Shown piece after piece: positions 7,460-53,312 of a stretch of DNA of 64,000 nt. The DNA comes from a bacterium 1xD42-67 (GTDB taxonomy: Bacteria; Bacillota; Clostridia; Oscillospirales; Oscillospiraceae), in NCBI GenBank assembly GCA_003612335.1, contig RAYO01000001.1:62001-126000 (forward strand), given 5' to 3'. Made by a program: the position numbers and the translations under genes. Position 1 is the stretch's first letter. Every line of letters starts with the position of its first letter. A model generated the notes under the pieces. The model was not told the origin of the DNA. It saw only the letters and a program-made list of their open reading frames with translations, and did not search any database.

Positions 7460-8398
7460 ATGGCCTACCAACTACAGGAGATCGGCCGGCGGATCCAGAG
7501 CGATGTGAGGGAGTTTTTGGCCGAATGCGATGAGAACTACGCCCAGCGGGTCTCCCTGGCGGCGGACCGGATCCTGTCCAATCTGGAGCGCAGCCCCATC
7601 GTGCTCCTGTCCGGCCCCTCCGGCTCCGGCAAGACCACCACAGCCATGAAGATCGCCGAGGAGCTGCGCCGCCGGGGCGTGGGCTCCCATGCGGTGGCCA
7701 TGGACAATTACTTCCTCACCCCTGACCCTAAGACCGCGCCCCGCACCCCGGAGGGCTCCATCGACTACGAATCCCCCCTGTGCCTGGACATGGAGCTGCT
7801 CAGCCAGCATTTTGCGGCCCTGAGCCGGGGGGAGGAGATCCTGATCCCCAAGTTCGAGTTCGCCCGGCAGATGCGCAACGACAGCTTGGGCGTCCCCCTG
7901 AAGCTGGAAAAGAACGAGATCGTCATCTTCGAGGGGATCCACGCCCTCAATGACCAGATCGCCGGCCGGCACCCGGAGGCCGCCAAGCTGTATATCTCCG
8001 CCCGGTCCAACGTGAACGAGGGGGCGGTCCTGCGCTTCAAGGGCACCTGGATGCGCCTGACCCGCCGGGCCGTCCGAGACTACAGCTTCCGGGGCACCGG
8101 CGTGGCCCAGACGTTGGAGATGTGGGCCAACGTCCGCCGGGGGGAGAAGCTGTATATCTCCCCCTTCAAGAACAAGGCGGATATCGTGTTCGACTCCTCC
8201 CTGCCCTATGAGGTGCCGGTGATGAAGAACTATGCCCTCCCGATCCTCCAGAGCGTCCCCAAGGACAACGAGCGCCACGATGAGCTGCTGGACCTGATCC
8301 GCGGCTTCGACCACTTCCAGGCCATCGACCCCGCACTGGTGGCCAAGGACTCCCTCCTGCGGGAGTTCATCGGCGGCGGGAGCTATCAGTACCATTGA
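7460..8398 (+). CDS. Uridine kinase-like nucleoside kinase
   Basis: A 312-residue P-loop kinase. The Walker A motif GPSGSGKTTT lies near residue 51, AMDNYFLTP near 80 gives the nucleoside-binding DxxxF/Y loop, and VIFEGIHALND near 155 gives the Walker B/acceptor strand. This arrangement belongs to the uridine kinase/phosphoribulokinase superfamily. The ~45-residue N-terminal helix and the C-terminal extension make it longer than Udk (~210 residues), so it is the Clostridia 'nucleoside kinase' variant. AGGAGG precedes the ATG, 15 bp after hemZ. Substrate not assignable. Confidence 0.88.
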   Translation: MAYQLQEIGRRIQSDVREFLAECDENYAQRVSLAADRILSNLERSPIVLLSGPSGSGKTTTAMKIAEELRRRGVGSHAVAMDNYFLTPDPKTAPRTPEGSIDYESPLCLDMELLSQHFAALSRGEEILIPKFEFARQMRNDSLGVPLKLEKNEIVIFEGIHALNDQIAGRHPEAAKLYISARSNVNEGAVLRFKGTWMRLTRRAVRDYSFRGTGVAQTLEMWANVRRGEKLYISPFKNKADIVFDSSLPYEVPVMKNYALPILQSVPKDNERHDELLDLIRGFDHFQAIDPALVAKDSLLREFIGGGSYQYH

Positions 8399-8460
8399 CG
8401 CCCCACAGGGGCAGATAAGAGGTTCCCCGCCCCACAGATCCTATACTCGGAGTGATTCCC

Positions 8461-10308
8461 ATGCCATATATGCCCACCTACGATCCCCGAGATCCCCGGT
8501 ACAAGGCGCCCTATGGGGCGGCGGCCTCGGGGACGCAGGTACGATTCACCCTCCGTCCTCCCCGGATGGAAGGCTACTCCCACGCCAGCATGCACGCCCG
8601 GTTCGAGAGCTGGAACGACCAGATCCTGATCATGAAGATGCCCTGGCAGGGCTTTGAAGAGGGCCACGACCTCTTCGAGGCCGAGCTGGACACCGCCGGC
8701 TATATAGGACTGATCTGGTACTCCTTCCGGCTGGAGAAGATAGACGGCCGCACCCAGGACCTGGGCCCCTATCAGCTCACCGTCTATGACGGGATGGAGG
8801 AGGTCCCCGCCTGGTTCGGCGAGGGGGTCACCTATCAGATCTTCCCCGACCGCTTCCGGCGCAGCCGGATCCCCGATCCGGCGGGCATGGTGGGAGGGCG
8901 CACCGTCCACCAGAGCTGGGAGGAGTTCCCCGAGTTCCGTCCCAACGAGCTGGGCGAGATCCGCAACCGGGATTTCTTCGGCGGCGATCTCCAGGGCGTG
9001 ATCGACAAGCTGGACTATCTGAAGGGGCTGGGGGTGGAGACCCTCTATTTCAATCCCATCTTCGAGGCGGCGGAGAACCACCGCTACGGTACCGCCGACT
9101 ACGACCGGGTAGACCCTATGCTGGGCACCAACGAAGACTTCTCCCGCCTGTGCCGGGAGGCCCACCGCCGGGGGATGCGGGTGATGCTGGACGGGGTGTT
9201 CAACCACACCGGCTACGTCAGCCGCTACTTCAACGGGGACGAGTCTTACCCCGACCAAGGGGCCAGCCAGAGCCAGGATTCCCCCTGCTACTCCTGGTTC
9301 AGCTTCGCCCAGTGGCCCCGGAAATATGACAGCTGGTGGGGGATCTACTCCCTGCCCGCCGTCAACGAGAACGACCCCTCCTATCGGGACTTCATCTTCG
9401 GCAGTGAGGACAGTGTGGTCCGCCGGTGGCTCCGAGCCGGGGCGGACGGCTGGCGGCTGGATGTGGCTGACGAGCTGCCCGACGACTTCGTGGCCGGGAT
9501 CCACGCCGCCGCCCGGGCGGAGAAACCCGACGCCGTTGTCATCGGCGAGGTGTGGGAGGACGGCTCCACCAAGATCGCCTACGGGGTGCGCCGCAAGCAC
9601 ATCCTGGGGGGACACTGCGACGGTCTGATGAACTACCCCCTGCGCTCCGCGATCCTGTCCTACTTCCAGGGGGGCGGGGCGGAGGTCTTCGTGGAGGAGA
9701 TGGAGACCATCCGGGAGAACTACCCCCCCTTCGCCTTCTGGTCCGCCATGAACTCTCTGGACACCCACGACACCCCCAGGATCCTCACCCTCCTGGGGGC
9801 GGGGGGAGACTACCGGGACAAGAGCAAGGAGTGGCGCGCCCGGTTCAAGCTGTCCTCCAAGCAGCGGCGCAAGGGCAAGGCCCTGTTCCGGGCGGCGGCC
9901 CTGCTGCTGTTCTGCTTCCCCGGCTCCCCCACGGTGTACTACGGGGACGAGGCCGGGATGGAGGGATTTGAAGACCCCTTCAACCGCCAGACCTACCCCT
10001 GGGGCTATGAGGACCAGGAGCTCCTGGACTGGTATCGTGCCCTGGGCCGGCTGCGCAGGCGTCACCCCGCCCTGCGCCGGGGGAGCATCCGCTACGTCCA
10101 GGGGCGGGGGCCCCTGCTGGCTTTCCTGCGGGAGACGGAACAGGAGCGGCTGCTGTGCGCCTTCAACACCGGGGAGGAGGGACGCGCCTTCTCCACCGAG
10201 GAGGGCAGGCCCCGCCTCCTCCTGGGCCAGGCGGAGCTCTCCTCTGAGGACGGCCTCCATACGATCCTCCTCCCCCCCAGGTCCGGCGCGGTCTTCTCCC
10301 TAAAATGA
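8461..10308 (+). CDS. Glycoside hydrolase family 13 (neopullulanase/alpha-glycosidase-like)
   Basis: A 615-residue cytoplasmic GH13 enzyme without signal peptide. All four conserved regions are present in order: DGVFNHTG (about residue 245), GWRLDVADE (about 330, nucleophile Asp), GEVWED (about 361, acid/base Glu) and SLDTHDTPR (about 437). The N-terminal ~115 residues form the beta domain seen in neopullulanases and maltodextrin glucosidases, and a short beta domain closes the C-terminus. It likely trims intracellular maltodextrins, working with MalQ and GlgP at 27-31 kb. The ATG at 8461 is preferred over a GTG nine bases earlier because GGAG lies at proper distance from it. Confidence 0.93.
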   Translation: MPYMPTYDPRDPRYKAPYGAAASGTQVRFTLRPPRMEGYSHASMHARFESWNDQILIMKMPWQGFEEGHDLFEAELDTAGYIGLIWYSFRLEKIDGRTQDLGPYQLTVYDGMEEVPAWFGEGVTYQIFPDRFRRSRIPDPAGMVGGRTVHQSWEEFPEFRPNELGEIRNRDFFGGDLQGVIDKLDYLKGLGVETLYFNPIFEAAENHRYGTADYDRVDPMLGTNEDFSRLCREAHRRGMRVMLDGVFNHTGYVSRYFNGDESYPDQGASQSQDSPCYSWFSFAQWPRKYDSWWGIYSLPAVNENDPSYRDFIFGSEDSVVRRWLRAGADGWRLDVADELPDDFVAGIHAAARAEKPDAVVIGEVWEDGSTKIAYGVRRKHILGGHCDGLMNYPLRSAILSYFQGGGAEVFVEEMETIRENYPPFAFWSAMNSLDTHDTPRILTLLGAGGDYRDKSKEWRARFKLSSKQRRKGKALFRAAALLLFCFPGSPTVYYGDEAGMEGFEDPFNRQTYPWGYEDQELLDWYRALGRLRRRHPALRRGSIRYVQGRGPLLAFLRETEQERLLCAFNTGEEGRAFSTEEGRPRLLLGQAELSSEDGLHTILLPPRSGAVFSLK

Positions 10309-10311
10309 ATG

Positions 10312-10343
10312 AAAAAGGATGGCTCAGTCAGCCATCCTTTTTT
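10312..10343. terminator. Bidirectional terminator shared by convergent genes
   Basis: AAAAAGGATGGCT and AGCCATCCTTTTTT form a perfect hairpin with a 5-base loop and U-runs in both directions. It ends the GH13 transcript and the minus-strand RHH transcript. The RHH stop codon (10324-10326) lies inside it. Confidence 0.9.
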
Positions 10344-10494
10344 CGTACTTTTTCAGGAGATCTTCCACTGCCTCGTCCAATAATCTGGATTTTGGGATCC
10401 TGGTCTCCTGCGCCAAGGAATCGAGCCCCTTGGCCAAACCATTTTTCAATGAGGATGTGAATCTGGTCCGATTCACTAAGATAGACTCTGCCAT
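10324..10494 (-). CDS. Small ribbon-helix-helix (Arc/CopG-type) DNA-binding protein
   Basis: A 56-residue protein read on the minus strand from the ATG at 10494: MAESILVNRTRFTSSLKNGL, AKGLDSLAQETRIPKSRLLD, EAVEDLLKKYEKRMAD. It has the ribbon-helix-helix layout: a basic strand (NRTRFTSSL), a helix with LxxLAxETxxPKSRLL (the alternating hydrophobics and PKS turn), and a final helix. RHH repressors bind as dimers or tetramers to short palindromes. A 28-bp dyad (10508-10535) lies just upstream of its start, between it and a divergent Cys-rich gene, so autoregulation and control of that gene are likely. Confidence 0.8.
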   Translation of the reverse strand: MAESILVNRTRFTSSLKNGLAKGLDSLAQETRIPKSRLLDEAVEDLLKKYEKRMAD

Positions 10495-10507
10495 GCCCTG
10501 CACCGCC

Positions 10508-10535
10508 TTACACTATTCTATGCTATCTAGTGTAA
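10508..10535. promoter_or_regulatory. Candidate RHH operator, dyad TTACACTA-N12-TAGTGTAA
   Basis: TTACACTA and TAGTGTAA are perfect inverted 8-mers separated by 12 bp. The spacer continues a 5-bp period (CTATT, CTATG, CTATC). Position between the RHH gene and the divergent Cys-rich gene, and next to the latter's promoter, fits an operator. Confidence 0.6.
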
Positions 10536-10561
10536 CCAACCATCCCCCAGAAAACAAGTGG

Positions 10562-10603
10562 TTGCATTTTGATGAAATAGGTGTATAATGATGTAAGGAG
10601 GTG
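10562..10603 (+). promoter_or_regulatory. Sigma-A promoter and ribosome site of the Cys-rich small protein gene
   Basis: TTGCAT (10562-10567), a 16-bp spacer and a perfect TATAAT (10584-10589). A strong AAGGAGGTG ribosome site (10595-10603) comes before the ATG at 10609, so the 5' leader is very short. Confidence 0.8.
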
Positions 10604-10608
10604 CTATT

Positions 10609-10791
10609 ATGGAGATAGAGAAAGGACACATCTGTCAAAACTGTATCCATTTTCGCCAGCACTATGTGAAGTGGGGAGAGGACCTCTACTGGCCGTGCGG
10701 TTCCGGACACTGCGTCTATCCCCGGTGCAAGCCCCGGTATAACGATACGAAAGCCTGCCAGTACTATGTCCCCAAAGACTACGCCCCCTGA
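10609..10791 (+). CDS. Small cysteine-rich protein (possible zinc-binding)
   Basis: A 60-residue protein with six cysteines: ICQNCIHF near residue 9 (CxxC), WPCGSGHCVYPRCKP (three Cys) and ACQYY near 50. This layout could bind one or two zinc ions or an iron-sulfur cluster. There is no membrane segment. The near-consensus promoter and AAGGAGGTG site suggest high expression when not repressed. The divergent RHH gene and intervening dyad suggest repression by that protein. I do not recognise a named family. Confidence 0.75.
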   Translation: MEIEKGHICQNCIHFRQHYVKWGEDLYWPCGSGHCVYPRCKPRYNDTKACQYYVPKDYAP

Positions 10792-10819
10792 ACAGCAGCA
10801 ACAGGACAGAGAGCACCAA

Positions 10820-10847
10820 AAGCCTCCTTTTCCCCGCAAGGAGGCTT
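10820..10847. terminator. Hairpin after the Cys-rich gene
   Basis: AAGCCTCCTT and AAGGAGGCTT pair across an 8-base loop. No U-run follows on the plus strand, while TTTT follows on the minus strand. It may be a weak terminator for the small gene or part of the repeat block that begins just after it. Confidence 0.4.
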
Positions 10848-10862
10848 GGAGACGGGGGGAAC

Positions 10863-44312: not shown

Positions 44313-44369
44313 AGGACAGATCCATGCGGTCGATGCGCGCTTCGTCAGACAGGGATAGGGGGACCAGAG

Positions 44370-44600
44370 ATGGACAGCGAAAGGATCATGGCATTCGTAC
44401 AGGAGCATCGGGAGCTCCTTTCGATGGCAGCCGGCGCAGCGATCGCCGCAGGGGCGGCGCTGGACTGGGACTGGCTGTGCGGCCCCGCCGGCGCGCCCCG
44501 GTCCCACCGCTATGGCAGGGGCGCCCGCCGGGCGATCTTCTTCCTGGGGGGCGTGGTGCTGATGGTCGTGAGCGTCTGGAGCCTGGCGCTGGCCGGATAG
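44370..44600 (+). CDS. Small membrane protein, Imm17-like
   Basis: A 76-residue protein with two hydrophobic segments: LLSMAAGAAIAAGAALDWDW (residues 18-37) and RAIFFLGGVVLMVVSVWSLA. A short polar Gly/Arg loop (RSHRYGRGARR) separates them. The ALDWDW motif after the first helix and the GRGARRxxxxLGG start of the second are what I recall of the small membrane immunity family Imm17. This is a likeness, not a search result. AGGGGGACC precedes the ATG. First gene of a cassette with an AAA+ ATPase and a VWA protein, 56 bp before the ATPase. Confidence 0.6.
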   Translation: MDSERIMAFVQEHRELLSMAAGAAIAAGAALDWDWLCGPAGAPRSHRYGRGARRAIFFLGGVVLMVVSVWSLALAG

Positions 44601-44656
44601 CTGCGGCCGGCGCGGACAGGACTGGTTGGAATCGCTTCGAAAGGGGGATACGTTTT

Positions 44657-45715
44657 ATGGATCTCACAGTGACCGTCGATCACAAGCAGCTATTAGACGT
44701 CCTGCTGAACGTGGGACTCATCCGGCCGGTGTTCATCTGGGGGGCGCCGGGGATCGGAAAATCCGCCATCGTCCAGGAGTTCGCCGACGCGCTGGGCCTG
44801 GAGTGCGTCTCCCTCCTGGGCAGCCAGCTGGCCCCGGAGGACATCATCGGGGTGCCCCAGATCCGGGACGGCTTCAGCCAATTCTGCCCGCCCCGGACCA
44901 TCGCCCGGGAGGAGCCCTATGTCCTGTTCCTGGACGAGCTGAACGCCTGCTCCTCCGAGGTGCAGAAGGCCTTCTATTCCCTCATCCACGAGCGGAGGAT
45001 CGGGGAGTACCATCTGCCCCAGGGCTCCATCGTGGTGGGGGCGGGCAACCGGGCCCAGGACAACGCGATCACCCGGTCCATGTCCTCCGCCCTGATAAAT
45101 CGGATGTTCCATGTGGAGCTCACCGCCAGCCCCCGGCTGTGGCTGGAGTGGGCGGCCCAGAACGGGATCCACCCCTATATCTACGACTATATCTCCAGCC
45201 GCCCCGATCACCTGTGGGCCAAGCCCCCCAAGAGCGAGGAACCCTTCTCCACCCCGCGGTCCTGGCACATGCTCAGCGACGCCATCCGCAGCTACGGGCC
45301 GGATATCGGAGAGGACGCCCTGCGTATCCTGGCGGCGGGATCCCTCAGCCCCCGGCACGCCACCCAATTCATAGCCTACATCCGCCAGGTGCGCAGCCAG
45401 TACGCCCTGGACAAGATCCTCTCCGGAGAGCAGCCCTGGCCCGGCAAGCCGGAGGAGCGGGACGTGCTCTACTTCCTGGCCCAGTCCCTCCGGGCCCGGC
45501 TGGTGAAGGAGCTGCCCCCGGAGCGGAGCAAGCTGAGCCATGACAGCCGCGCCCTGGTCCTCCAGGCCAAGGACCGCATCACTGAGCTGGCTGACCTCAG
45601 CCTGGAGATCGCCCGGATGGCGGTGTCCCCGGAGGACGGCAAAGAGCTGCCCGACTGGTTCGTGGTGGAGCTGTTCCGGGACCTGCCCCGTCTGGCCGAC
45701 AAGCGGAACGGATGA
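44657..45715 (+). CDS. MoxR-type AAA+ ATPase
   Basis: A 352-residue AAA+ protein. Walker A is IWGAPGIGKSAIVQEF near residue 28, the substrate loop is LAPEDIIGVPQIRDG, Walker B is YVLFLDELNACSSEVQ near 92, sensor 1 is VGAGNRAQDNAIT, and the arginine finger region is SSALINRMFHVEL. This is the MoxR layout, whose members work as chaperones with VWA partners. The stop overlaps the VWA gene start (ATGA). The ~120-residue C-terminal part is helical and probably contacts the partner. Confidence 0.92.
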   Translation: MDLTVTVDHKQLLDVLLNVGLIRPVFIWGAPGIGKSAIVQEFADALGLECVSLLGSQLAPEDIIGVPQIRDGFSQFCPPRTIAREEPYVLFLDELNACSSEVQKAFYSLIHERRIGEYHLPQGSIVVGAGNRAQDNAITRSMSSALINRMFHVELTASPRLWLEWAAQNGIHPYIYDYISSRPDHLWAKPPKSEEPFSTPRSWHMLSDAIRSYGPDIGEDALRILAAGSLSPRHATQFIAYIRQVRSQYALDKILSGEQPWPGKPEERDVLYFLAQSLRARLVKELPPERSKLSHDSRALVLQAKDRITELADLSLEIARMAVSPEDGKELPDWFVVELFRDLPRLADKRNG

Positions 45716-47484
45716 AGGGGAAACAGAAGAGGCCCGACCCGGCGCAGGAGGCCTTTCGCGCCGGGGAGGGGCTGGTGAAACAGGACCCGGTGCTGCGCTC
45801 TCTGATGGAACGGGCCGTGACCCACTTTGACGACAGCTATCCGATGGCCAGGGAGGATTGGGCCTGGGTGGCCTCCAACGGGCAGATCTACGCCAACAGC
45901 CACCGCCGGGCCGCCCCTCAGGAGTGGGCCTATGTGCTGGCCCACTGCCTGCTCCATCTGGCCTTGGGGCACATCCGGGAGGACCGGGAGGGGGACCTCC
46001 TGTGGAACGCCGCCTGTGACTGCGTGGCCGCCCGGTATCTGGCCGACCTGCGGATCGGCGCGCCCCCGGGGGAGCTGGATGGTCCACTGCCCCCCAACGC
46101 CCGGGAGGAGGAGAAGCTGTACCAGTGGCTGAAGGAGCACCAGGACCCCTCCTATCTCCGCTCCTCCACCATGAGCGGGGGGCGGGCGGACATGGTCTGG
46201 AGAGGGGAGCGTCCGGTCGACTGGTGGTATGGCTCTACCGACTGGCAAAAGCTCTTTGCCGAGAGCCTGCGGGATGCCCTGCGCGTCGCCGTGGACTATG
46301 CGGGGGGCGTCCGGACTGAGCCAGGCAAAAAAATAGGCCCCATCCGGCGGGCCCAGGAGTGGTTCCTGTCCAGCTATCCCCTGCTGGGAGGCGTCGCCTC
46401 CGGGTTCCGGCTGGTGGACGACCATGTGACCGTCCAGCGGATGGGCATCTCCATCGCCGCCATCTCGGTCCAGATGCAGGAGATCTATGTTGACCCTGCC
46501 GCCCGCCTCACCGAACAGGAGTGGCGGTTCGTCCTGGCCCACGAGTACCTCCACGCCGCCCTGTGCCACGAGCAGCGGCTGGGCAAACGGGACCCTGAGC
46601 TGTGGAACGTGGCCTGCGACTATGTGATCAACCAGTGGCTGCGGGACATGGAGGTGGGCCAGATGCCCGAGGGCCTGCTCTTCGACCCGGAGCTGAACGG
46701 TCTGTCGGCGGAGAGCATCTATGACATGCTGGCCGCCGACCTGCGCAGATACCGGCGCATGGCCCAGCACGACATCCTCTTTGGTCCCCCGGACTGGCGG
46801 GGGTCTAAGGACTATGTGGATCTGGACAGCTGGTGCCGCTCCGCCATCCAGCGGGGGCTGGACTATCACCAGAGCCATGAGCGGGGCTATCTCCCTGCCG
46901 GACTGGTGGAGGAGATCCGCGCTCTGTCCCAGCCCCCGATCCCCTGGGACGTGGAGCTGGCCCGGTGGTTCGACGAGCGGTTCGAACCTCTGGAAAAGCA
47001 CCGGACCTACGCCCGCCTCAGCCGGCGGCAGTCCTCTACCCCCGACATCCCCCGCCCCTCCTGGCGGTATGAGGAGCAGGCCCAGGCGGGCCGGACCTTT
47101 GGGGTGCTGCTGGACACCTCGGGCTCTATGGACCGCTCGCTGCTGGCCGCCGCTCTGGGGGCCATCGCCAGCTACAGCGCGGCCCGGGACGTGAAACAGG
47201 TGCGGGTGGTCTTCTGTGATGCCGTCCCCTATGATCAGGGGTATATGGAGGCAGCGGATATCGCAGGGAGCGTCAAGGTCCGGGGCCGGGGCGGGACGGT
47301 CCTCCAGCCCGGGGCGGAGCTGCTGGAGCGGGCCCAGGACTTCCCCAAGGAGGCGCCCCTGCTGATCATCACAGACTGTGAGTGCGACCGCCTGAACCTC
47401 TTCGGCCGGGACCACGCCTTTCTGGTGCCCCGCGGGAGGAGCCTGCCCTTTCCGCCAAAGGGGCCCGTGTTCTATCTGGAGTAG
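45712..47484 (+). CDS. VWA-like protein with duplicated metallopeptidase-like region (DUF2201 type)
   Basis: A 590-residue protein. Residues 70-112 and 269-312 are repeats of the same unit: EWAYVLAHCLLHLALGHI then LWNAACDCVAARYL, against EWRFVLAHEYLHAALCHEQR then LWNVACDYVINQWL. Copy 2 has an intact zinc-peptidase motif HEYLH (277-281). Copy 1 reads HCLLH (78-82) and has lost the catalytic Glu. The C-terminal third is a VWA-like domain with the metal site DTSGS (468-472) and later RGRGGTVLQPG. It matches the DUF2201_N plus DUF2201 architecture. It is translationally coupled to the MoxR ATPase and is the last gene before a terminator. Confidence 0.9.
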   Translation: MKGKQKRPDPAQEAFRAGEGLVKQDPVLRSLMERAVTHFDDSYPMAREDWAWVASNGQIYANSHRRAAPQEWAYVLAHCLLHLALGHIREDREGDLLWNAACDCVAARYLADLRIGAPPGELDGPLPPNAREEEKLYQWLKEHQDPSYLRSSTMSGGRADMVWRGERPVDWWYGSTDWQKLFAESLRDALRVAVDYAGGVRTEPGKKIGPIRRAQEWFLSSYPLLGGVASGFRLVDDHVTVQRMGISIAAISVQMQEIYVDPAARLTEQEWRFVLAHEYLHAALCHEQRLGKRDPELWNVACDYVINQWLRDMEVGQMPEGLLFDPELNGLSAESIYDMLAADLRRYRRMAQHDILFGPPDWRGSKDYVDLDSWCRSAIQRGLDYHQSHERGYLPAGLVEEIRALSQPPIPWDVELARWFDERFEPLEKHRTYARLSRRQSSTPDIPRPSWRYEEQAQAGRTFGVLLDTSGSMDRSLLAAALGAIASYSAARDVKQVRVVFCDAVPYDQGYMEAADIAGSVKVRGRGGTVLQPGAELLERAQDFPKEAPLLIITDCECDRLNLFGRDHAFLVPRGRSLPFPPKGPVFYLE

Positions 47485-47637: not shown

Positions 47638-50361
47638 TCATGCCGCTCCATCCTGATCTGCTGTTTTGTGGACGAACGCTGATGCATCATCTTTTCTCAT
47701 GAACAGCAGGCCGAAGGAACCCGGACCACAGTTGCTGGCGATGGCGGAAGAGGCTTTTTGCAGATAGACCCGCTCGAATGGACAGTGCTGTTGGACCAGA
47801 TCTTGGATATATTGGAGCTTTTCCGCGTCCAGACCGGAATATGTGATGAACAGGATGCGCCGGTCGATGGTCCTGGTCTCCTGGAGCACCCTCCGGATGT
47901 ACTTTTTCGCGACGTTCGCAAAGCCGCCTACCTCCACGCCGCCCACCACCATCTTGCTTTTTCTCAGTACGAGGATCGGGTGCAGCAGCAATGCGTCGCA
48001 AAGGACCTGTACCCGTTTTGAGATCCGGCCGGATCGGCACATCATATGGGTGTTATCGATGATGAAGGCGGAGGAGATAAGGCGTTCTGCCCGTTTCACA
48101 AACGCAGCGATCTCAGCCTTTGAAGCGTGGTGCTCCGCCAGGTGGGCCGCGTACAGCACCGACAGGCCCATACTGCTGGAGAGGTGTCCGGAATCGATCA
48201 CAGTGACGTTATCGAAAGCTCTGGCCGCTTCAAGGGCATTTTGATAGCCGTTGCTGACGTGCTTTGCCATCGTGATGTGGATCACGTTCTGCGCCTCGGT
48301 CAGCTTCTCCGCGAAGAACCGTTCATAGTCCTCCACTTCGGGCGGCTGGGAATATCCTTTCCGGCCTTTGGCGATATGCGCCAGCAGCTCATCCGGGCTC
48401 AGCTCCTGGCCGTCCAGGAATCGGCCCTCATCCGTACAGACGTAGTAGGGGCAGACCGAGATGCCGCAGGCCTTTATGAGGGATCCCGGGAGGTCGCATA
48501 CACTGTCCGTCGTGACCAGGATGGAGCGCCGCTTGGCCCGCTCGAAGATCAGGATATCCTTTTCCAGATCGGACTGTCCGGGATCCTCACACTGCCGCAC
48601 CAGCTCCTTGGGCAGGATGTTCAGCACGGCCGCCTCCAGCAGTGCGCCGCTGACCGGCTTGGCCAGATAGCCGCTGAACCCCTCCTTCCGGTAGAGCATC
48701 TGGTTATCGCTGCCCGCGTTGGCTGTCAGGGCCACCACAGGTACATCCTGACACAATCCGCCCGGCTGCACCCGCAGTGCGTGGAGGCACTCGATCCCGT
48801 CCATCTCCGGCATCAGATGGTCCATCAGGATACAGTCATAGTGGTGGTCCCGAGTCAGGGCCAGGCATCCCATCCCGCTGGACGCAGTGTCGATCTGGAT
48901 CTTCGTGGCCGCAAGCAGTTTCGTCACTACCATCAGGTTCATGTCGTTGTCGTCCACCACCAGGATATGTGCGTCCGGGGCCTCGAAGCTCTGCTGATAC
49001 GTCCCTCCGTCATGCAGCTTTGCCCGGGAGGCCAGTGTGAACGTCCCCAGCTCTTTCTCGTCCACGATATCCTGCTCCAGCGTGACGATGAACTTGGAGC
49101 CCTTGGTATAGACGCTGTTCACGCTGATCTCGCCGCCCATCAGCTCCACCAGCTGCTTGACGATGCTCAGCCCCAGCCCGGTCCCCTCGATATGGCGGTT
49201 CTTCTCCTCGTCCACCCGCCGGAACGCATTGAACAGATAGGGGATGTTCTCCTTCTTCACCCCCTGACCGGTATCCTCTACGGAATACCAGACGAGCACC
49301 CGGTTGACATCCTGGCGCTCACAGCGGACGGAGAGGGTGACAGAGCCCTCGCTGGTGTATTTCACCGCGTTGTTCAGCAGGTTGATCAGGATCTGCTTGA
49401 TGCGCACCTCGTCTCCGCAGAGCATGCTCGGGATGGATGGGTCGATATGGAGCTTGAATTCCAGCCCCTTCTCTTTGGCCTTGATCCAGATCATGTTGAC
49501 GATCTCAGAAAAGAGGGTCCCTGTCTCATAGGATGTGTTGATGATCTCCATCTTTCCCGACTTGATCTTGGAGATATCCAGGATGTCGTTGATCAGGGTG
49601 AGCAGCAGCTTGCTGGCCCCCTGGATATTCCTGGCGTTCTCCGCCACGTCCTCCGGGATATCGCCCCGCAGGGTGATCTCGTTCAGTCCTATGATCGTGT
49701 TGATAGGGGTGCGGATCTCGTGGCTCATGCTGGAGAAGAAGTGGTTCTCCGCCTGATTCAGCTCTTCGATCTCCTTTTTCTGCTGCTGGGTGAGGGCGTT
49801 CTCCTCCTCATACATCCGGTTCAGGAACATGAGCAGCACGCTGGTGAGCAGTCCCACCATGACCATGGAGAAAGCGGAGTCGAAAAAGGAGCGCTGCTGG
49901 GAGTTCAGGGCGGCCAGCTCTGGGAAATAGAAAGCGATGCCGTAGCACAGCAGGGTCTCCGCCGCACACAGCACGAAGAATGCAGTCATGCGTTTCCCCT
50001 GCAAGGTGATGCAGACGTAGATGAAGCAGAGGACGAACCACTCAGGCACGCCGCTGTAGAACCCGCCCGCGGTGAAGAACGTGAAAGGGAACAGCGCGAG
50101 CAGCAGCACCACGATGGCTGTGGCCCCCGCCTGCACGCGCCCTTTTCGGATGCTGATGCGTACGATCGCCGCGATGACCGCCAAGCTTACCGCCAGGATG
50201 ACGAGATTCAGGATGCTCCTGCCCATCGGCAGGGTGAATATCAGCGCGATCATGCAGATCGCTGTGGCGATGCGGAACATACGCTCGCTCAGGCTGATCT
50301 TGTGGTCAGAGATGATATCGAACCATTTTTTTATCACACAGATCCCCGCTCCTTCCAACAT
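47638..50361 (-). CDS. Membrane histidine kinase-receiver-DegV fusion protein
   Basis: A 907-residue protein with an unusual architecture. Five or six membrane helices lie at about 30-180. The HisKA domain has its His at 214 (SSMSHEIRTP). The HATPase domain has NLLNNAVKY, DTGQG and GTGLGLSIVK. A receiver (464-580) has Asp514 (ILMDHLMPEMDG). A DegV/FakB-type fatty-acid-binding domain occupies 613-895 (LVTTDSVCDLP, YSQPPEVEDYERFF, VIDSGHLSSSMGLS, CRSGRISKRV). The DegV lipid-site motif usually reading LSGT is VSNG here. It is the last gene of the receiver/hybrid-kinase operon. The ATG at 50361 lacks a good ribosome site; a GTG at 50337 follows GGAAGGAG and may be used. Confidence 0.9.
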   Translation of the reverse strand: MLEGAGICVIKKWFDIISDHKISLSERMFRIATAICMIALIFTLPMGRSILNLVILAVSLAVIAAIVRISIRKGRVQAGATAIVVLLLALFPFTFFTAGGFYSGVPEWFVLCFIYVCITLQGKRMTAFFVLCAAETLLCYGIAFYFPELAALNSQQRSFFDSAFSMVMVGLLTSVLLMFLNRMYEEENALTQQQKKEIEELNQAENHFFSSMSHEIRTPINTIIGLNEITLRGDIPEDVAENARNIQGASKLLLTLINDILDISKIKSGKMEIINTSYETGTLFSEIVNMIWIKAKEKGLEFKLHIDPSIPSMLCGDEVRIKQILINLLNNAVKYTSEGSVTLSVRCERQDVNRVLVWYSVEDTGQGVKKENIPYLFNAFRRVDEEKNRHIEGTGLGLSIVKQLVELMGGEISVNSVYTKGSKFIVTLEQDIVDEKELGTFTLASRAKLHDGGTYQQSFEAPDAHILVVDDNDMNLMVVTKLLAATKIQIDTASSGMGCLALTRDHHYDCILMDHLMPEMDGIECLHALRVQPGGLCQDVPVVALTANAGSDNQMLYRKEGFSGYLAKPVSGALLEAAVLNILPKELVRQCEDPGQSDLEKDILIFERAKRRSILVTTDSVCDLPGSLIKACGISVCPYYVCTDEGRFLDGQELSPDELLAHIAKGRKGYSQPPEVEDYERFFAEKLTEAQNVIHITMAKHVSNGYQNALEAARAFDNVTVIDSGHLSSSMGLSVLYAAHLAEHHASKAEIAAFVKRAERLISSAFIIDNTHMMCRSGRISKRVQVLCDALLLHPILVLRKSKMVVGGVEVGGFANVAKKYIRRVLQETRTIDRRILFITYSGLDAEKLQYIQDLVQQHCPFERVYLQKASSAIASNCGPGSFGLLFMRKDDASAFVHKTADQDGAA

Positions 50362-50388: not shown

Positions 50389-52953
50389 TCATATCCCGGC
50401 GAGTCGGGCGCAGACCTCGTCATAGGCGCGCAGCAGCGCGGCGTGCCGCGCCAGGATGAAGTCCACATCCCCCCGCTTCCCCGCCAGCTCCAGCTCCTTT
50501 GCCTGTGCGGAAAGGGCTGTTGCGCCGATGGTGAGCGCCGTGCTCTTGAGCGCGTGGACCTTGATCGCATAATCCGTCCAGTCGGCGGCCTCATACAGGG
50601 AGACGATCTCCGCCTTTTTGCTCCCGCTCTGGGCGCAGAACATCCGCAGCATCTCCCGGAAGAAGCCCTCGTCTCCGGCGCAGTAGTCCAGTCCCAGGGC
50701 CGTATCGATCCCCGCCCGGGCCAGCCGGTCGTAGGGGAGCCCGGAGCCGACGGCGGGGGGCACCGCAGGCTCGGCCGCCTCCGCAGCCTCTGTACGCTCC
50801 GCCGGCACGGGGACGCTGTCGGGCGCACGGGGCCCATCCTCTGCCGGAACGGCCGGCTCCTCGTCCTCCGGCATATCTCTTTCCGGAGGGTCTTCGCCGT
50901 ATTGGATCGAGCGGTCAGGCAGCACCTTGCGCAGCACACGCTCCAGGACGGTCCGCTCGATAGGCTTGGGGACGAATTCCGTGAAGCCTTCGCTGCGGAA
51001 CATCTCCCGGGCCCCGCTGACAGTATTCGCGGTGAGCGCGATCACCGGCAGGTCCTGATAGGCCCCGCTCAGGAGCTCCCGGATCTTCTTCAGGGTCTGC
51101 ACGCCGTCGAATCCCGGCATCATGTGGTCCAGGAAGATGATGTCATAGGGGATGGCCTCGCACCGCGCCACAGCTTCCTTCCCGCTCAGGCAGGTATCCA
51201 CCTCGATCCCATAGCTCCCCAGCACGCCCTTGGCCACCACCAGGTTCATCTCCTCGTCATCCACCGCCAGCGCCCGCACGCCGGTGCAGGTGAACGGCTT
51301 CCGCCCGGCGGCCTGAGACTCCGCGAAGCCGCGCGCCTCCAGGTCTCCATTCAGCAGGTTTGCGACGGAGAGGGCAGAAAAGGGCTTGTGCATGATGAGC
51401 AGCTTGCTCCCGCTGTCCAAAGTGAACTCCTTCTCTGCGATCACGACGACACGGAGCGTATCGGCCAGTCCTTCGTAATATGCCCGGTCCTCTTCATACT
51501 CCGACTGGGCGATGAACACATGGGTCAGGCTGTGGCTGCGCTGCAGCTTGAACAATCCTTCCAGGTCGTGGGTCTGATAGCCGTTGATGCCAAGCCCCCT
51601 CAGCAGGTTCAGGATCAGGCTGTCATAATACCCCCGGACCTCGTCGCAGCTGTACCGTTCCGGTCTGAAATAGCATGCGACGCACACCTGATCGGCATGG
51701 TCGAGGACGATGCACGGCTGGTCGTCCGCTACCCCCTGGGGGATCACGATATGAGCGTGCAGGCCCTGATGTCCCTTGCTCTCGAAGTGGATGAAGCCGC
51801 CCATAGCGTTCAAAAGCCCCCGAGCGATCGGGAGCCCCAGTCCGAGCCCGCCCACCAGACGGCTGCTCCCGGAGTCTGCCTGGTAAAAGTCGTCATACAT
51901 CTGCGTCATCTGGGAGTCCGTCATGCCGATCCCCGTGTCGCAGATATCGATGATCAGATTGATACCATAGTGCTCCGGTCGGTATCCGATGCGGACGTTC
52001 ACGCCGCCCTCCTCGGTGAATTTGATGGAGTTCTCCACCAGGATCTTGAGCACATGGGAGATCTTCTCCGCGTCGCCGATGAGGACCGCGGGCACCTTCG
52101 GGTCGATATCGAACACGATCTCCAGATGATTCCGGTTGCTTTGCAGAGCGGTCATCGTGATCACATCGTTCAGCACGGATGTGATCATATATTCCTCCCG
52201 CTCCGGCTTCAGGGTGCCCTCTACGATCTCGGTGTAGTCGAGCATATTGTTGATCTGGCTGGACAGGCGCTTCCCGGCCAGCTGGATCGATGTCATATCC
52301 GCCTGGATGTCTGGGCGGAGCTCCTTCCCCAGCGCCACCTCACTGAGCCCGATCACCATATTGATCGGCGTGCGGAGCTCATGGGACACGTTGGATAAAA
52401 AAACAGCGTTCTGCCTTCCGGACGCTTCCAGCTCGGCGAAGACATGGTCATACCATTTCCGCTGGATGCTCCGCTGCTTGATCCAATAACCCGCCAGCGC
52501 CACCCCGCAAAAGGTCACGACCGCCCCAAGCCCCAGGCGGAGCCCATCCTGGAAGCCGATATCACGGGAGATCGTATGGAGGATCAGGGCATGGTATACC
52601 AGCACCAGGACATAGAGCGCCGCAAGTACGTACAAGATCCACTTTTTGTTCAGTGAGAACAGCGCGAGGATGATGATACAGGCCACTGCAGGGATGTCGA
52701 AAAGGCTGGACCTATGTACGCCGAAGAAAAAGAACTGCAGCAGGATCAGCCCGGCGCAGAGATCTTCATAAAAGATATCTGGACCGAGCTTTGCGATGTG
52801 CAGTGACCACACGCTGAAGCACCCGGCTGCCATCAAAGGGAGCGTCCAAAGCTCCCACCCCATCGCCACAGTGATCAGGCCCAGCATCCCGCTGGATACC
52901 GTGGTGATGATGGCCAGCAGCAGATGCCTGCTCGTCTGTTCCCGCGCCCTCAT
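50389..52953 (-). CDS. BarA-like hybrid sensor histidine kinase with two receiver regions and Hpt
   Basis: An 854-residue protein. About six N-terminal membrane helices (10-155) carry no large outside loop. HisKA His191 is in LSNVSHELRTPINMVIG, and the HATPase has ENSIKF, DTGIGM and GGLGLGLPIA. Residues 413-540 look like a degenerate receiver without the Asp. A real receiver (about 560-675) has Asp609 (FLDHMMPGFDG). A Pro/Glu-rich linker leads to an Hpt domain with His800 (VHALKSTALTIGA). A full phosphorelay in one chain. Its start overlaps the stop of the receiver gene upstream (ATGA), and the DegV-kinase starts 27 bp downstream. Confidence 0.93.
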   Translation of the reverse strand: MRAREQTSRHLLLAIITTVSSGMLGLITVAMGWELWTLPLMAAGCFSVWSLHIAKLGPDIFYEDLCAGLILLQFFFFGVHRSSLFDIPAVACIIILALFSLNKKWILYVLAALYVLVLVYHALILHTISRDIGFQDGLRLGLGAVVTFCGVALAGYWIKQRSIQRKWYDHVFAELEASGRQNAVFLSNVSHELRTPINMVIGLSEVALGKELRPDIQADMTSIQLAGKRLSSQINNMLDYTEIVEGTLKPEREEYMITSVLNDVITMTALQSNRNHLEIVFDIDPKVPAVLIGDAEKISHVLKILVENSIKFTEEGGVNVRIGYRPEHYGINLIIDICDTGIGMTDSQMTQMYDDFYQADSGSSRLVGGLGLGLPIARGLLNAMGGFIHFESKGHQGLHAHIVIPQGVADDQPCIVLDHADQVCVACYFRPERYSCDEVRGYYDSLILNLLRGLGINGYQTHDLEGLFKLQRSHSLTHVFIAQSEYEEDRAYYEGLADTLRVVVIAEKEFTLDSGSKLLIMHKPFSALSVANLLNGDLEARGFAESQAAGRKPFTCTGVRALAVDDEEMNLVVAKGVLGSYGIEVDTCLSGKEAVARCEAIPYDIIFLDHMMPGFDGVQTLKKIRELLSGAYQDLPVIALTANTVSGAREMFRSEGFTEFVPKPIERTVLERVLRKVLPDRSIQYGEDPPERDMPEDEEPAVPAEDGPRAPDSVPVPAERTEAAEAAEPAVPPAVGSGLPYDRLARAGIDTALGLDYCAGDEGFFREMLRMFCAQSGSKKAEIVSLYEAADWTDYAIKVHALKSTALTIGATALSAQAKELELAGKRGDVDFILARHAALLRAYDEVCARLAGI

Positions 52954-53312
52954 CTCTTATCGAACTCCTGCGCTACCCGCTTGATGAGCTCCTGCGGCCG
53001 GTAGGGCTTTTTCAGATAGTCCACCGCCCCCAGCAGGAGCGCGCCGACCACATCCTCCACCTCGCCCGAGGCCGTCAGGAAAATGACAGGGATATCCGCA
53101 GCGAACTCTTTCATATGTTCGAAGGTCTCCATCCCGTTCATCAAAGGCATGTCGATATCCAGGAGGACCAGGTCTATCTTCTGGTCCCTCAATATGTGCA
53201 GCGCCCGTATCCCGGAATCCGCCAGTACCACATCATAGTCTTCTCCCAGGATGATCTGCGTCCGCATCAGATTCATTTGGTCATCATCCACTACTAAGAT
53301 ACGCTTCTGCAT
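52950..53312 (-). CDS. Stand-alone response-regulator receiver domain (CheY-like)
   Basis: A 120-residue single receiver. VDDDQMN holds the acidic pocket, LVLLDIDMPLMNG the phosphorylated Asp (near residue 53), FLTASGE the Thr and YLKKPYRPQEL the Lys. There is no output domain, so it is either a phosphate shuttle for the two kinases below it or acts on protein targets. First gene of the three-gene phosphorelay operon, overlapping the next by 4 bp. Confidence 0.93.
   Translation of the reverse strand: MQKRILVVDDDQMNLMRTQIILGEDYDVVLADSGIRALHILRDQKIDLVLLDIDMPLMNGMETFEHMKEFAADIPVIFLTASGEVEDVVGALLLGAVDYLKKPYRPQELIKRVAQEFDKR

Follow-up and report, generated by a model that had tools for sequence, protein, structure and literature searches.

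Domain Organization of the Kinase-Receiver-DegV Protein

Analysis of the window, a 64,000-nucleotide stretch of DNA from a bacterium of the Oscillospiraceae, revealed a protein in which a hybrid histidine kinase and a complete DegV domain are joined in one polypeptide chain. This kinase-receiver-DegV architecture is real and widespread and is best placed as a variant among the hybrid-kinase phosphorelays. In the reading that we favor, and to which we give about an even chance, the protein would be one of two hybrid kinases in a multistep phosphorelay, with the DegV domain as the input for a lipid-like or carboxylate ligand that is sensed, not delivered.

The gene lies on the minus strand (47638–50361, stop codon included in the span) and encodes 907 amino acids with no internal stop across the frame. 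The N-terminal membrane region (residues 1–190; 49792–50361), in which no Pfam match was found, contains six partly overlapping hydrophobic segments within residues 28–180 in a hydropathy scan. It is followed by a HisKA domain with the phospho-acceptor His214 (residues 206–269; 49555–49746; PF00512, E = 9e-15), a HATPase_c domain (residues 316–430; 49072–49416; PF02518, E = 4.6e-27), a receiver with Asp514 (Response_reg, residues 466–579; 48625–48966; PF00072, E = 1.8e-21), and the DegV domain (residues 614–889; 47695–48522; PF02645, E = 2.1e-42). All four Pfam matches are above the curated cut-offs. The DegV match spans positions 2–279 of the 280 in the profile, so that by sequence alone this is a full-length domain of DegV fold, and it scores 156.4 bits against a cut-off of 99.7 with the NCBIfam DegV model (TIGR00762). 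The coordinates and domain list of the first-pass annotation, including a complete C-terminal DegV domain, agree with Pfam; the strand, which it did not state, is minus. The two phospho-acceptors that it named also hold, with His214 being His in 79 of 81 aligned window-type sequences (2 gaps) and Asp514 being Asp in 80 of 81 (1 gap). HisKA, HATPase, and receiver are thus all present with their phospho-acceptors, as in a hybrid histidine kinase. The kinase core (49066–49764, residues 200–432) is nearly constant among relatives, with dN of 0.013–0.064 as compared with 0.060–0.185 for the membrane part in 11 comparisons.

The Fusion Is Genuine and Under Selection

The single chain was borne out in other genomes, since the DegV protein is fused to the kinase in all 80 loci retrieved from relatives (the best 80 of 109 confirmed, found in genome contigs with the DegV part as query). 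A frameshift or an assembly join of two genes is excluded by these 80 loci, and the wider alternative, in which the fusion is either such an artifact or carries a decaying passenger domain lacking function, has next to no probability. What speaks for it is L127, 1 of 49 further loci, where the kinase-receiver and DegV parts lie in two overlapping frames (8178–10860), as a frameshift or an error in sequencing would produce. Against it, besides the 80 intact fusions, the dN/dS of the DegV domain is 0.055–0.169 in 11 comparisons with hand-chosen relatives and lower than that of the linker in every one, the ratios being rough at dS values of up to 2.45. The DegV domain is held by purifying selection. 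Moreover, a fully supported branch parts the fused DegV domains (65) from stand-alone DegV proteins (25) in a quick tree that has some unsure long branches and includes 16 of the 81 window-type sequences. As the fused domains all fall on one side of this branch, the tree fits a single origin of the DegV-kinase fusion. Within an open-access literature collection that omits most subscription papers, no description of a fused DegV-kinase turned up; two papers (PMC12688256 and PMC3146951) treat DegV and the kinase apart, as different genes or different topics.

Distribution among Clostridia

Within the genus of the window, 14 of the 64 genomes gave a match to the fused DegV profile (E ≤ 1e-182), with 12 of the 14 matches lying in open frames of 892 residues or more and an additional 75-residue piece at a contig start beyond these. 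Carriers of the gene include culturable gut commensals such as Schaedlerella arabinosiphila and Sporofaciens musculi. In even draws of genomes, DegV matched within an open frame of 700 residues or more in 9/391 genomes of the class and 3/398 of the phylum, all three of the latter from the class of the window. Two families carry it more often, with matches in 47/299 (f51) and 67/115 (f66) genomes at E ≤ 1e-85, a threshold that falls between the fusions and the top stand-alone match of the phylum search (1e-77); among the matches listed, 6/61 and 4/67, respectively, are in open frames shorter than 700 residues, and fusion status was examined in L127 alone.

A tree of 82 sequences (the window, the 80 loci, and L122) contains 30 from Lachnospiraceae, 29 from Oscillospiraceae, 4 from other families, and 19 without family, going by record titles, and the two main family labels need 3 and 4 changes on this quick tree, which has some unsure long branches. 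There are hints, although not proof, of transfer between Lachnospiraceae and Oscillospiraceae, many of the records being metagenome bins. A mobile element as the carrier was rejected on plasmid, phage, and viral-contig searches: none of the best-scoring 5000 plasmid matches carried 80% of the protein at a single location, the 39 phage records matching the DegV part were all below 60% identity (26–33% in the 8 rows inspected), and a scan of viral contigs found no carrier of the kinase-receiver-DegV protein.

A Three-gene Module

The fusion gene is the third of an operon. A lone receiver protein of 120 residues with Asp52 (52950–53312, minus strand; PF00072, E = 3.2e-29) comes first and overlaps by 4 bases with the gene of a partner hybrid kinase (50389–52953, minus strand), which is separated by 27 bases from that of the DegV kinase. 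The 854-residue partner comprises HisKA (185–243), HATPase (293–406), receiver (562–673), and HPt (767–832) domains by Pfam; the HPt match (31.1 bits, cut-off 24.6) places an HPt within the same system. Order and strand of the three genes are kept in 73 of the 80 loci (best 80 of 109), and the 7 without a recognized triad include several at contig ends, L068 without a recognized receiver, and L054 with shortened frames. Clustering of neighboring genes revealed no further family in more than 5 of the 80 loci; an extra conserved neighbor as the output was rejected on this count, and the triad is therefore the unit. The first-pass annotation, which considered a single protein, was right about the fusion but missed both this module and the c-di-GMP regulators of its relatives described below.

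The phosphorelay residues of the neighbors are also highly conserved. Across 77 partner kinases, the phospho-acceptor His is kept in 75, the receiver Asp in 76, and the HPt His in 76, being replaced by Arg in the remaining one, and the Asp of the lone receiver is kept in 74/74. The regulator of the window is a receiver alone, with neither GGDEF nor HD-GYP by Pfam, while c-di-GMP enzymes are encoded elsewhere in the genome (7 GGDEF and 5 HD_5 matches), as are two FakA-type Dak2 matches and four stand-alone DegV proteins. On the plus strand, two frames of 463 and 590 residues (44324–47484) converge on the end of the operon; by eye they resemble the pairing of a MoxR-type ATPase with a partner of VWA type.

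Related Modules Vary the Regulator and the Site of the HPt

A second set of 49 fusion loci, of which 9 came from the class search and 40 were hand-picked from the 128 listed family-search matches, is not a random sample, and two of its members (L120 and L121) fall in the window clade on a tree of 77 fusions. Both kinases recur in these loci, together with a variable regulator: a single protein combines GGDEF with HD-GYP in 18, HD-GYP occurs in 8, and GGDEF in 10, where it is part of the receiver protein or encoded by a gene of its own on the same strand; 9 have a receiver only, and no regulator was seen in 4. Accordingly, a GGDEF and/or HD-GYP protein is found in 36 of the 49 loci of this non-random sample, with intact motifs in 29/30 GGDEF and 25/27 HD-GYP frames. 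A minimum of 13 changes in output is required among the 73 labeled members of the 77-fusion tree, a quick tree with some unsure long branches. On it, 31 window-type sequences form one branch with a lone receiver, a label assigned as a block to the window and 28 of the window-type rows and including L068 and L099, in which no receiver was seen; the sister, L122, has a receiver-HD-GYP protein. Outside its own clade, and among the frames of the 49 loci, the lone receiver is closest to the receivers of receiver-HD-GYP proteins (47% identity to L125, followed by L102, L124, and L122). Together with the state of the sister, this suggests that the version in the window has probably lost the enzyme end of its regulator.

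The HPt also changes its location. It is located on the partner kinase in 40 of the 49 loci, behind the DegV domain in 4 (L107, L133, L135, and L138), and on a separate receiver-HPt protein in another 4 (L109, L126, L128, and L134); it was not seen in L101, a locus near a contig start. That each core module has a single HPt position, filled by one of three alternative proteins, fits a shared relay. Additional HPt proteins are found nearby in L134 and L135 and in six loci from a single genus (L149 and L151–L155), where an extra gene for a kinase-receiver-HPt protein, located upstream of the GGDEF/HD-GYP regulator, brings the cluster to four genes.

Modules without DegV were also seen, each of two genes, at L111 (3906–7194), L112 (5257–8545), L062 (2311–5636), and L074 (7998–11257). 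They comprise a 7TM-PAS hybrid kinase with an HPt, plus a receiver (domains from L111, where the HPt is below Pfam's cut-off), and their kinase core is ∼40–42% identical to that of the window protein; in L062 and L074 such a module sits immediately downstream of the DegV kinase. A 580-residue protein in L110 (4320–6059, minus strand) carries DegV at residues 302–577 behind ∼300 residues that have no Pfam match (E ≤ 0.001).

The Putative DegV Ligand Site

The FakB proteins, which carry fatty acids to FakA, are the best studied DegV proteins, and FakB1 was used as the reference for the ligand site. According to two papers (PMC8892158 and PMC9136124), Thr62, Ser95, Ser171, and His270 of FakB1 contact the fatty-acid carboxylate, Arg173 acts in catalysis and as a latch and is required in the FakA kinase reaction, and Arg205 serves in binding to FakA and the membrane. 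We fixed the register with HMMER alignments to FakB1 and B. subtilis DegV and then with a joint alignment including intermediates. The compared sets were 81 window-type sequences, the 49 other fusions (two of them window-type), and 24 stand-alone controls, 4 from the genome of the window and 20 hand-picked from the phylum search with the fusion profile, which biases this set toward fusion-like proteins.

The alignment changed one earlier assignment. The SQPP motif had been described as kept and LSGT as replaced by VSNG, which misread the register: Ser671 of the SQPP in the window aligns to the second threonine of TTSQP (Thr62 of FakB1), and the LSGT serine (Ser95 of FakB1) is kept as Ser703 within VSNG. 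Pairing SQPP with SQPP was rejected after alignment through the intermediates and B. subtilis DegV. With this register, the two hydroxyl positions that contact the carboxylate in FakB1 are occupied by Ser671 and Ser703 in 81/81 window-type sequences. The Thr62 position is Ser or Thr in 25/49 other fusions and 23/24 stand-alone proteins, and the Ser95 position is Ser in 15/49 and 24/24, respectively. His270 is replaced by Asn877 in all 81 window-type sequences and by Asn in 46/49 other fusions (His in 1/49), as compared with His in 21/24 stand-alone proteins. Arg205 is replaced by Val811 in the window, with Arg in 0/81, 1/49, and 21/24, and Arg173 (Arg779 in the window) is Arg in 55/81, 9/49, and 24/24. 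A fusion-typical histidine, His726, is present in 81/81 window-type sequences and 39/49 other fusions but in 0/24 stand-alone proteins, and Ser671, Ser703, His726, Asn877, and Cys878 are all invariant in the window type (81/81).

Because both hydroxyl positions are Ser throughout the window type, the window-type DegV domain may bind a carboxylate-type ligand. Hand-over of a lipid to FakA, which the first-pass annotation had named as the role of DegV/FakB proteins, is unlikely given the loss of the FakA- and membrane-docking Arg205 in all 81 window-type sequences and 48/49 other fusions; Arg173 is also non-Arg in 26/81 and 40/49, and His270 is Asn in 81/81. The lipid-sensing role that the annotation proposed has partial support: the fusion is real, its DegV domain is selected, and the hydroxyls are Ser in 81/81, although hand-over falls away and the Ser95 position is kept in only 15/49 other fusions. 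The strongest case against a plain fatty acid is the change of His270 to Asn, together with the drift of the site in the other fusions. Judged by the examined residues, the DegV part is no FakB carrier but may still bind an acid in a similar manner; its putative FakA-docking side is gone, and the headgroup hydroxyls remain in the window clade and are often lost elsewhere.

Input, Output, or Docking Module

The position of DegV at the C terminus behind a receiver, where an output domain usually sits, raises the alternative that it is the effector, with phosphorylation of the receiver opening or closing the pocket and thereby governing whether lipid is bound, released, or supplied to FakA. In its favor, no other output domain occurs in the window-type module, and the genome does hold FakA-type Dak2 genes (2 matches) and four stand-alone DegV proteins. 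We nevertheless regard this as improbable, with Arg205 lost in 81/81, Arg173 not kept in 26/81, and the HPt following DegV in four relatives. The strongest case against it is that another gene carries the changing output in most examined relatives, an enzymatic c-di-GMP output in 36/49, while DegV stays. It is also unlikely, at a somewhat similar level, that DegV is a ligand-free protein-docking module, for example for a stand-alone FakB or another protein of EDD fold. The drift of the headgroup residues in other fusions would agree with docking, as would the binding of FakB by the C-terminal domain of FakA (FakA_C), as reported in PMC9136124. The five residues invariant in the window type, however, resemble a kept site.

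We thus return to the reading of DegV as an input to the relay, for which several lines of evidence can be named. The triad keeps its order in 73/80 loci (best 80 of 109) with no other shared family in more than 5/80, the phosphorelay residues are kept in both kinases and the lone receiver, the regulator changes beside an unchanging pair of kinases, and each core module has one HPt place on three alternative proteins. The DegV domain is selected, sits on a single fusion branch, and has lost Arg205 yet kept the carboxylate hydroxyls in the window clade. There is also a precedent in SaeRS, a two-component system on which fatty acids act (PMC5539427). The reading is weakened by Asn at His270 in 81/81, by a site not conserved across the family (Ser95 in 15/49, a hydroxyl at Thr62 in 25/49), by the lack of an output domain on the regulator of the window, by Arg in place of the HPt histidine in 1/77 partner kinases, and by regulators that are receivers only in 9/49 loci or not seen in 4/49.

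Proposed Mechanism

Two kinases with membrane-type N termini, three intact receivers, and one HPt are encoded together. In the proposed relay, phosphate would pass from the receivers of the kinases to the single HPt and on to the lone receiver, which would act on a target elsewhere. The DegV domain would be a regulatory input and not an output: binding of a small lipid-like or carboxylate ligand would shift the kinase/phosphatase balance of the joined receiver, and with FakA docking given up, DegV would sense rather than deliver. In most of the related modules examined, the regulator slot is occupied by enzymes for making and degrading c-di-GMP. A broader and more tentative proposal, which we hold as possible but doubtful, is that one DegV fusion gave rise to a Clostridia kinase family whose bound ligand, a fatty acid or lipid-like acid, controls c-di-GMP levels by way of a shared HPt, with the lineage of the window signaling through a free receiver instead.

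Collectively, these data place a DegV fold inside a signaling-kinase chain, with the FakA-docking arginine dropped, under selection in many gut Clostridia. If a ligand is bound, the protein would be a direct sensor of the pool of a fatty acid or related acid and would, in related operons, connect that acid pool directly to c-di-GMP.

Comparison with Known Systems

Three known systems are the closest in kind. To our knowledge, SaeS, the kinase of one of them, has no DegV domain. With the FakB/DegV family (PF02645, TIGR00762; S. aureus FakB1, B. subtilis DegV), the window protein shares a complete DegV domain above both curated cut-offs and the hydroxyl residues at the Thr62 and Ser95 positions of FakB1 (81/81 window-type). 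It differs from FakB in that the domain is within a kinase chain, Arg205 is lost, Arg173 is relaxed, His270 is Asn, and a fusion-specific His726 is present. In S. aureus, SaeRS and the fatty-acid kinase offer a two-component system that answers to a FakA-controlled fatty-acid pool, although there the fatty-acid kinase acts indirectly by lowering that pool (PMC5539427). The HisKA-HATPase-receiver core is shared with hybrid kinases of the BarA/TorS kind, and the best NCBIfam matches are to the models of TorS and BarA, at scores well short of the respective cut-offs; unlike these kinases, the window protein ends in DegV and relies for its HPt on a partner protein.
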